From NCBI RefSeq assembly GCF_001592435.1, contig NZ_CP014750.1, positions 682,001 to 746,000 on the forward strand: a DNA stretch of 64,000 bases, read 5' to 3'. The position numbers and the translations under genes are program-made. The notes below the pieces were generated by a model. That model saw nothing but the letters and a program-made list of their open reading frames with translations, was not told the DNA's origin and did not search any database. Origin of the DNA: Thermococcus peptonophilus (GTDB lineage: Archaea > Methanobacteriota_B > Thermococci > Thermococcales > Thermococcaceae). This document shows positions 14,926 to 17,021 of this stretch, in pieces; within the stretch, counting starts at the first letter, position 1; each line of letters opens with the position of its first letter.

Positions 14926-15597
14926 TCACTGAAGCTCCATAACCTGCTCAGTGTAGGTGCTGGGAGTGGTGAACTCGATGACTCCTGGGGCACCAAACTC
15001 AGGAACAACCTCACCAGTGACCTTCTTGCCCGGGGCTATTCCGTAGCCGAAGACACCAGTTTTGTCATCGGTTCCGACCTTGACCGTCAGAACGACGATG
15101 TCACCCTCGTTGAGGGTTGGATAGTTGGCGCTAAGGCTGGAGTCTCCATCTTGGATGACAATGATACCGTAGTTGGTCTGGTTCTGCTTAATATTTGCCC
15201 AAGCATTAAGGGTAGTGTCGAAGATGTCAGCAACTGGGCCCTCAGTAAAGGCACTAGCGGTGGTGTTATACATTAGAACAGCCTCAACGGTTCCATTGCT
15301 GAGAACAAGCTTGGTGTTCTTGAGATCAATGCCTGCGCTACCGGCGTTGGGCGTTATGTATACCGCCAACTGCTGGATGTATTCAAGGCTTCCGTTGGCC
15401 TTACCAACAACCCTCTCGACCTGGATTCCACTGGCAACCTGTTGGGTGCTAGCTCTTCCAGTGCTGGAAGCCTTCTGCTGGAGGTAGCCGCTGGTGTTGA
15501 TCAGCACTGCCGCGGCCACTGCCGCAACGAGCACCATGGCAATAAACACTATCAAAGTCCCAATACCAACCGCACCTTTCCTAGTTCTAGTCTTCAT
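14926..15597 (-). CDS. flaB1: Archaellin FlaB1 (promoter-proximal)
   Basis: First gene of the archaellum operon, 223 residues, and probably the major filament subunit because it is nearest the promoter. Leader MKTRTRKG precedes [19 protein letters not shown]; the helix runs into NTSGYLQQK. The core has [21 protein letters not shown] and the C-terminus [17 protein letters not shown]. The ATG at 15597 follows GGGGGTGCG. A T-rich tract right after its stop may cause partial termination before flaB2. Confidence 0.96.
15472..15543 (-). repeat. 72-nt block identical to flaB3 13668-13739
   Basis: Partner of the flaB3 block. The identity stops abruptly at both ends, as expected of a gene-conversion tract. 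Confidence 0.85.
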
Positions 15598-15643: not shown

Positions 15644-15653
15644 ATTATATAAA
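15644..15653 (-). promoter_or_regulatory. Archaellum operon TATA box
   Basis: On the minus strand this reads TTTATATAAT, preceded by a purine-rich AAAAAAGGC that may act as BRE. The expected start of transcription, about 25 bp on, is near 15622, leaving a leader of about 25 nt before the flaB1 ATG. No comparably strong TATA box was found between the following archaellum genes. Confidence 0.85.
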
Positions 15654-15686
15654 GGCCTTTTTTGTTGTTGGTAGTGTAAGTAGCTG

Positions 15687-15708
15687 TGTACCTACATATG
15701 TAGGTACA
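15687..15708. promoter_or_regulatory. Perfect 22-bp palindrome upstream of the archaellum promoter
   Basis: GTACCTACATATGTAGGTAC (15688-15707) is a perfect inverted repeat and one more pair extends it on each side. It ends about 35 bp upstream of the archaellin TATA box, the position expected for an activator. It contains TACATA on both strands (15693-15698 and 15697-15702), and a third TACATA follows at 15705-15710. From memory, TACATA-like hexamers are the EarA target in Methanococcus maripaludis; an EarA-like gene lies just upstream. Confidence 0.65.
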
Positions 15709-15725
15709 TAAACAAAAAAAGAAGC

Positions 15726-16682
15726 TCATAATTTTTCCAGTATAAGGAAGCTTCTGCCCGGAGACTTTACATCCACTTCGAAGTCCAAGCTGGAGACTAT
15801 CTCCTTTATTTCCGAAACTGAGGGGAATCCCACAAAGTCCTTGTTGAGGGACTCAAAAAACTCCAGGGCAGGAACGTACTTAAACCGGTCCCTAAATGGA
15901 TCAAGGATAACGAGCTTTCCCCCCTCCTTGAGGCCCTCAAGGGCGTTTTTTATGACCCTTTTCCTATTCCGGATGTACTCAAGGAAAAAGCTCATTATTA
16001 CAACGTCATAGGAATTCACCGGGCGTATAAGGGTGGCATCCATCTCCTTTAGAACGACGGGAAGAGCCTCTCCAGCGATTCTAGCACGGGCTATGTCAAG
16101 GAGTGCATAGGAGTAGTCCAGGCCCAGGTAAAAGCCGTCGTACCCGACGAGCCTGCCGAAATATGCAGGAGAGACCGAGCCACAGCCGATATCCAGAACC
16201 GACATGCCCGCAGTTATACCCGCCACTTCAGCTATCGCTTGTCGGTAAAGAGTGGAAAAGGATGTGCTCATCCTCATGTCCCAAAAATCGGCATCTTTAT
16301 CGAAGTCCATGATGATCTGGGGATGAGTGGGCGTTATGAAGGCATAATCAGCCATCTTGTATATCTCCTCAAGAACGGACGCCCAGTCCGGAGCCAAGGG
16401 ATAGTACCTTTCCGCAGTAATGATCAGGTCATGGGAGAAGCTTACCAGCTCAACATGGTCGTTAGTTCTGATTATGCCGAGCCTATCAAGAGTTACTAAG
16501 AAGCGGGAGAGGAGCCTTCTGTTGGGGATTCCGATTTCATCCATGAACCCCGAGAGAGAAGGCCGTTTTGAAAGAGCTGAAAAAATGCCGCGCTTTATAC
16601 CGAGTGAAATTATAAAAAATAGGGACATCTCTGTCATAAGGTCTAGGTTGGTATCAACGGCACGGATTAGGGGGGTGGACAT
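15726..16682 (-). CDS. SAM-dependent methyltransferase next to the archaellum operon
   Basis: A 318-residue class I methyltransferase. Residues 1-85 resemble the helical/winged-helix dimerisation region seen in O-methyltransferases (LSGFMDEIGIPNRRLLSRFL). The Rossmann core starts near 160 with MSVLDIGCGSVSPAYFG, followed by the acidic D of FYLGLDYSY and GGKLVILDPF. It is translated just after the EarA-like gene (GAGGTGG site, 9-base gap) and ends about 40 bp before the archaellum palindrome. From memory, a methyltransferase beside the Pyrococcus furiosus archaellin genes has been called fam. Its substrate is unknown; archaellin, its glycan or a regulator are possible. Confidence 0.8.
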   Translation of the reverse strand: MSTPLIRAVDTNLDLMTEMSLFFIISLGIKRGIFSALSKRPSLSGFMDEIGIPNRRLLSRFLVTLDRLGIIRTNDHVELVSFSHDLIITAERYYPLAPDWASVLEEIYKMADYAFITPTHPQIIMDFDKDADFWDMRMSTSFSTLYRQAIAEVAGITAGMSVLDIGCGSVSPAYFGRLVGYDGFYLGLDYSYALLDIARARIAGEALPVVLKEMDATLIRPVNSYDVVIMSFFLEYIRNRKRVIKNALEGLKEGGKLVILDPFRDRFKYVPALEFFESLNKDFVGFPSVSEIKEIVSSLDFEVDVKSPGRSFLILEKL

Positions 16683-16691
16683 CTCTCCACC

Positions 16692-17021
16692 TCACAGGAA
16701 GCGCCTGTAATAGCGGTGATATTCTTTGAGGTAATCAACGACTTTTTTGCCATATTCTGTTAGACGGTAGTACTTGAAGCCGTTCCTGCTTATTTCCTCA
16801 ACAAGGCCAAGATAAACGAGGGAACTTTCGTTGTTGTACCTGTTCCCGAGACCCACCAAGGCCCCGCGGACGTTGGAGGGGTCGGAGCCGATCACCCGCG
16901 CTATCTCGGACAGGTAAGTTGCGGAGGGATATATCTCGTTGAGGTACATCAGTATCCTCTTTCTAAGCTCGCTACGGTGAAGGGAGCGCAATACCTGTGG
17001 TTCAATCACTACCGAGTTCAT
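16692..17021 (-). CDS. earA: EarA-like winged-helix archaellum regulator
   Basis: A 109-residue DNA-binding protein with an ArsR/MarR-like winged helix: helix-turn-helix around residues 38-58 (LSEIARVIGSDPSNVRGAL) and the wing to KYYRLTEYGKKVVDYL. Size, fold and position beside the archaellum operon fit EarA, the transcriptional activator of archaellum genes described in Methanococcus, for which homologues in Thermococcales are known. Start ATG follows GGGGGTGACAGG. It is transcribed towards the operon, ahead of the methyltransferase. Assignment rests on context and size as much as sequence. Confidence 0.7.
   Translation of the reverse strand: MNSVVIEPQVLRSLHRSELRKRILMYLNEIYPSATYLSEIARVIGSDPSNVRGALVGLGNRYNNESSLVYLGLVEEISRNGFKYYRLTEYGKKVVDYLKEYHRYYRRFL

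Follow-up and report, generated by a model that had tools for sequence, protein, structure and literature searches.

A palindrome before the archaellum operon of Thermococcus peptonophilus lies within a putative three-box EarA operator that recurs upstream of chemotaxis genes

Why does a long perfect palindrome stand just upstream of the archaellum (arl) promoter in Thermococcus peptonophilus? A first-pass annotation of the 64-kb stretch of DNA analysed here (the window) had noted three TACATA words in and beside this element, had pointed to an EarA-like gene further upstream, and had read the palindromic arrangement as suggesting dimer binding. Our analysis places the palindrome, with high probability, in a three-box operator for EarA. 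It also points to EarA as the probable common activator of motility and chemotaxis, with binding of EarA at the chemotaxis arrays inferred from sequence.

The palindrome and the arl promoter

The element is the sole perfect palindrome longer than 14 bp in the window. Its distance from the TATA box of arlB0, on the upstream side, is 34 bp, where about 35 bp had been annotated. With independent bases, 0.015 palindromes of at least 22 bp are expected per 64 kb. Because 8 of 200 windows simulated under a Markov-1 model contained one this long, its length by itself is only moderately unusual. The three TACATA copies were recovered as described, two on the plus strand (at 15693 and 15705) and one on the minus (promoter) strand (TATGTA at 15697). 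The third TACATA (15705-15710, plus strand) runs beyond the palindrome end at 15708, which accounts for the end at 15710 in the first-pass annotation. It was rejected as an EarA box, being out of the conserved register and absent in a close relative (G011). The gene order on the minus strand is earA, a methyltransferase gene and arlB0, and the EarA-like gene proved to be a member of the EarA family, the only one in this 1.9-Mb genome. The features are as follows.

16692..17021, minus strand: earA, winged-helix activator; PF07381, E-value 8.4e-33, score 112.5 bits (cut-off 22); the genome has no second PF07381 match
15726..16682, minus strand: SAM-dependent methyltransferase gene between earA and arlB0; PF08242, E-value 6.1e-12
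15698..15705, minus (promoter) strand: putative EarA box 1, ACCTACAT; 1.2-1.9 bits in each of columns 1-8 of the arl alignment
15687..15708, no strand assigned: 22-bp perfect palindrome TGTACCTACATATGTAGGTACA, spanning box 1 and most of box 2; longest in the window
15686..15693, minus strand: putative EarA box 2, AGGTACAC; 12 bp downstream of box 1, conserved in the arl alignment
15674..15681, minus strand: putative EarA box 3, ACTTACAC; 12 bp downstream of box 2, conserved in the arl alignment
15658..15663, minus strand: A6 tract at the BRE position, separated by 10 nt from box 3 upstream of it; all 39 of 39 arl promoters have AAAAAA here (alignment anchor)
15646..15653, minus strand: arlB0 TATA box TTTATATA, in register in 39 arl promoters
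14926..15597, minus strand: arlB0, first archaellin gene of the arl operon; PF01917 (Arch_flagellin), E-value 2.8e-44

In addition, a T7 tract (15714-15720, minus strand) closely follows the stop codon of the methyltransferase gene, on the upstream side of the palindrome, and is a likely terminator of the earA-methyltransferase unit.

EarA boxes before arlB0 have already been published. According to Stoeckl et al. 2023 (PMC10665913), Thermococcales arlB0 genes are preceded by EarA sites of the form A(C/G)(C/G)TACA(T/C), in up to three copies and about 9-11 nt upstream of an A-rich BRE, and EarA is essential for archaellation and needed for arl expression in P. furiosus. Motif, copy number and BRE distance are the same as for the boxes here. 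Boxes 1 and 2 fit the motif exactly, box 3 has one deviation, and the 10 nt between box 3 and AAAAAA fall inside the published range upstream of a weak A-rich BRE. The TACATA-type hexamers, which the first-pass annotation had given as EarA recognition words, also fit this published motif. In M. maripaludis, four EarA sites, as opposed to three boxes here, lie directly upstream of the A7 BRE of the fla promoter and are needed for fla transcription (PMC5512572); as quoted in PMC10665913, that site is a 6-bp TACATA-type hexamer as here. With the boxes, their place before the BRE and an encoded EarA all found, the arl promoter of T. peptonophilus appears from its sequence to contain an EarA operator. 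The available text of PMC10665913 limits EarA to arlB0 and gives neither a 12-bp period nor a palindrome, in contrast to the present description of both.

Direct repeats among arl promoters

Promoters of relatives were drawn from 61 genomes of the same genus and 30 further genomes, and 39 non-redundant Thermococcaceae arl promoters were aligned on the A-tract, with two of them (L017 and L151) one base out of step. They share the layout ACCTACAT-ATGY-A(C/G)NTACAY-N4-NNYTACAY, followed by 10 nt, AAAAAA and the TATA box. The conserved unit consists of two or three direct copies of ACCTACAY on the promoter strand with an exact period of 12 bp. Within the window, the three-box score at period 12 was 32.9 bits, against at most 15.0 in the rest of the period-12 scan and a best score of 11.8 bits at the other periods from 8 to 17.

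The same alignment ruled out the palindrome as the conserved unit. A palindrome of at least 16 bp occurs in 5 of the 39 promoters, and its length is 22 bp here, 24 bp (G011) and 30 bp (G083) in the three closest genomes and 6-18 bp in most other relatives. A long inverted repeat, as a palindromic dimer operator would show, is not conserved among orthologous promoters; the 12-bp period of the tandem direct repeats is constant across orthologs and target genes. Comparison with other Thermococcus fla promoters, which the first-pass annotation had proposed, upheld the boxes and not the long palindrome, and did not support the view that the palindromic arrangement matters. Since most other Thermococcus carry the direct repeat ATGCACCTACAC, the palindrome probably arises inside the degeneracy allowed by the EarA motif, at a point where box 1 would be mirrored by the C or G permitted in box 2 together with the T in the first spacer. 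It appears to be an elaboration specific to this lineage, built around a CATATG core that is commonly conserved, and selection for it may have operated inside this clade of three related genomes. Because CATATG is kept in 28 of the 39 arl promoters, a dyad may still have some role in them. In the closest relative, G083, a 30-bp perfect palindrome (GTTATGTACCTACATATGTAGGTACATAAC) occupies the same place (L106, G083:C1:176900-179900).

Could the palindrome instead be a dyad operator for one EarA dimer, with the direct repeats secondary? Winged-helix (wHTH) dimers of the ArsR/MarR type read inverted half-sites. The EarA model (pLDDT 89.7) shows a winged-helix fold with a long helix at the C-terminus, and the solved folds predicted to be nearest to it are AspA of pNOB8 and ArsR/MarR proteins, which are dimers; searching the PDB with the EarA sequence gave nothing useful. 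Retention of the CATATG core, conservation of the first spacer ATGY (1.1, 1.0 and 1.7 bits in its first three columns), and extension of the palindrome in G011 and G083, where the same outer pair is G-C and A-T, are also in line with a dyad. However, beyond the rarity of palindromes of at least 16 bp, the right arm is free to vary whereas ACC is almost constant in box 1, and dyads are missing from the MCP-A, MCP-B and soluble-MCP receptor arrays described below. We consider a dimer operator of this kind unlikely.

The tandem arrangement suggests the following mechanism for the arl operon. EarA, encoded about 1.3 kb upstream, would bind the ASSTACAY boxes, which follow one another head to tail with a 12-bp period, would then sit next to the weak A-rich BRE, and would recruit TFB to start arl transcription, according to the recruitment model published for Methanococcus and Pyrococcus. 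The Pho box of PhoB offers an analogy in mode of action only: it is made of direct 7+4 bp repeats, compared with 8+4 bp here, and is read head to tail by winged-helix proteins; PhoB belongs to an unrelated family and another domain of life.

Arrays upstream of chemotaxis genes

Chemotaxis genes came up in searches with patterns of 12-bp period, and a matrix trained on arl promoters only was applied to chemotaxis promoters. It found the array in 18/18 orthologs of the cheR operon of this genome, in all 10 orthologs of a dCache receptor gene (MCP-A, in the form ACCTACAY-N4-YCCTACAC-AAAA), in the 3 examined copies of a second receptor gene (MCP-B) and in both soluble MCPs. At two further MCP genes of T. 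peptonophilus the array is inverted (positions 1355104 and 1530255). The MCP-A, MCP-B and soluble-MCP arrays are without a dyad, and chemotaxis promoters with boxes mostly lack a palindrome. Allowing at most one mismatch to ACCTACATN4ASSTACAY, we detected five loci in the T. peptonophilus genome, all of them intergenic, with about 0.25 expected by chance. Four of the five are upstream of arl or receptor (MCP) genes, with a hypergeometric value of 7e-9 that is good for order of magnitude only, as it rests on a rough estimate of 9 motility units among 1200. Matches with two mismatches inside coding genes (e.g. at 442, 532, 980, 1362 and 1477 kb) were taken as chance.

The array was not seen at every chemotaxis gene: the MCP gene at 1383 kb of this genome and the 34%-identical cheR of another genome (G016, L100) are without it, and receptor genes inside the che operon have no arrays of their own. 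A receptor gene divergent from cheR (L086-L098) carries a single EarA box followed by 8 nt and CTTTTAT, at a fixed distance to the TATA box, in 13 of 18 genomes.

Counted from the last box (first base) to the T of the TATA box, the distance is 28-29 nt in arl promoters and 15-19 nt in the other promoters measured. Because the arl array is thus displaced outwards by about one repeat unit, both types of array can, from their spacing, present the same DNA face. Conservation of this array upstream of their orthologs makes cheR and MCP genes candidate members of an EarA regulon. With the same boxes at the same 12-bp period, one repeat closer to the TATA box, before the cheR operon and most receptor genes, EarA therefore most likely activates motility and chemotaxis together. 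Activation at the chemotaxis arrays and head-to-tail binding are inferences, as is TFB recruitment, which follows the published model for arl. Relative to the available text of Stoeckl et al., which names chemotaxis genes as a future question (PMC10665913), the arrays before chemotaxis genes are a new result.

EarA is present in 45 of the 61 genomes of the genus. Exact triple arrays occur in 41 of these 45 versus 1 of the 16 EarA-negative genomes, that one being chance-like, and every genome with cheR also has EarA. Such co-occurrence is supporting evidence only, because it would also be seen if che were of use solely to cells with archaella; the genomes are related, and motility itself is a confounder. 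In the EarA-positive Archaeoglobales- and Methanocaldococcales-like genomes tested, the 12-bp triple array was not found; two single-mismatch matches equalled the reversed control, and arlB was not on those loci.

The T. kodakarensis motif and other arrays

A 23-bp motif, TTTGTGTABSTGBTTATGTAGGT, has been reported in T. kodakarensis before the co-regulated fla, che, TK0156, TK2147, TK1139 and TK1605 units (Villain et al. 2021, PMC8643681). Its reverse complement (ACCTACATAAVCASVTACACAAA) reads ACCTACAT-AAVC-ASVTACAC-AAA, that is, two EarA boxes 12 bp apart. Array and gene classes (fla, che and receptors) are the same as here. Villain et al. treated it as a motif of supercoiling-responsive promoters, called its function unclear and guessed at topology sensitivity; unlike here, it was not linked to EarA, which that paper does not mention (PMC8643681). 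Genes with this motif fall together in histone mutants, for which no candidate regulator was found (Sanders et al., PMC8155482). A search of the literature collection used here retrieved no paper joining EarA, the 23-bp motif and the histone-mutant data. The arrays of G011, which we take to be T. kodakarensis KOD1, precede fla, che, an MCP gene, an AAA ATPase gene and an MBL-MCP operon, in agreement with the 23-bp-motif loci; an MCP profile search did not find TK2147, an MCP homolog, in G011.

That the chemotaxis boxes are bound by another regulator, or form an element sensitive to DNA topology or histones, an idea put forward for the 23-bp motif, would accord with the response of fla, che and TK0156 to gyrase expression and histone mutations (PMC8643681, PMC8155482). 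We regard this as improbable: every letter of the boxes agrees with the published EarA motif and the 12-bp period is the same, the genome encodes a single PF07381 protein, and a topology effect, which names no binding protein, can act through EarA. The palindrome was rejected as an RNA hairpin terminating the earA-methyltransferase transcript, a very remote prospect although a perfect palindrome is able to fold and this one is placed 18-39 bp beyond the stop codon of the methyltransferase gene, as the T7 tract, the usual archaeal terminator, already intervenes (15720-15714, minus strand) and the direct repeats are conserved, not the palindrome.

If EarA does act on both sets of promoters, it would be a switch shared by archaellum and chemotaxis system and not the regulator of one operon. 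The unexplained 23-bp promoter motif of T. kodakarensis would then be identified, and there would be a candidate for the factor through which histone mutants lose fla and che transcripts together. The idea can be tested in a genetically tractable species. More tentatively, and in our view with the odds against it, EarA might act as master activator of motility and chemotaxis as a whole in Thermococcales. It would assemble head to tail on 12-bp repeats in helical phase, nucleating at the dyad that marks the far end of the arl array, and chromatin and supercoiling would influence fla and che expression through this assembly.

Several further arrays were noticed. A three-box array precedes a conserved gene for a 140-aa protein (MLFTRHAKERLKKRLAKRG...) without a Pfam match in two genomes, T. 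peptonophilus (L067, C1:8846-8877) and G011 (L101/L184, G011:C1:896135-896166), and a divergent membrane-protein gene starts on its other side. Five tandem TACAY repeats with a 12-bp period are present in a genome without cheR (L053, G019:C1:1310236-1310288), with no ORF of at least 80 aa directly downstream. A two-mismatch array of T. peptonophilus (L079, C1:1052773-1052792) is located before a gene for a 125-aa, winged-helix-like protein without a Pfam match. Finally, an identical weaker array, CCGTACAC-CAAT-ATGTACAC-AATT-GCCTACAC, was observed in three genomes (L045, L103 and L105), before a gene that encodes a secreted or membrane protein and lies downstream of an aspartyl-tRNA synthetase-like gene.
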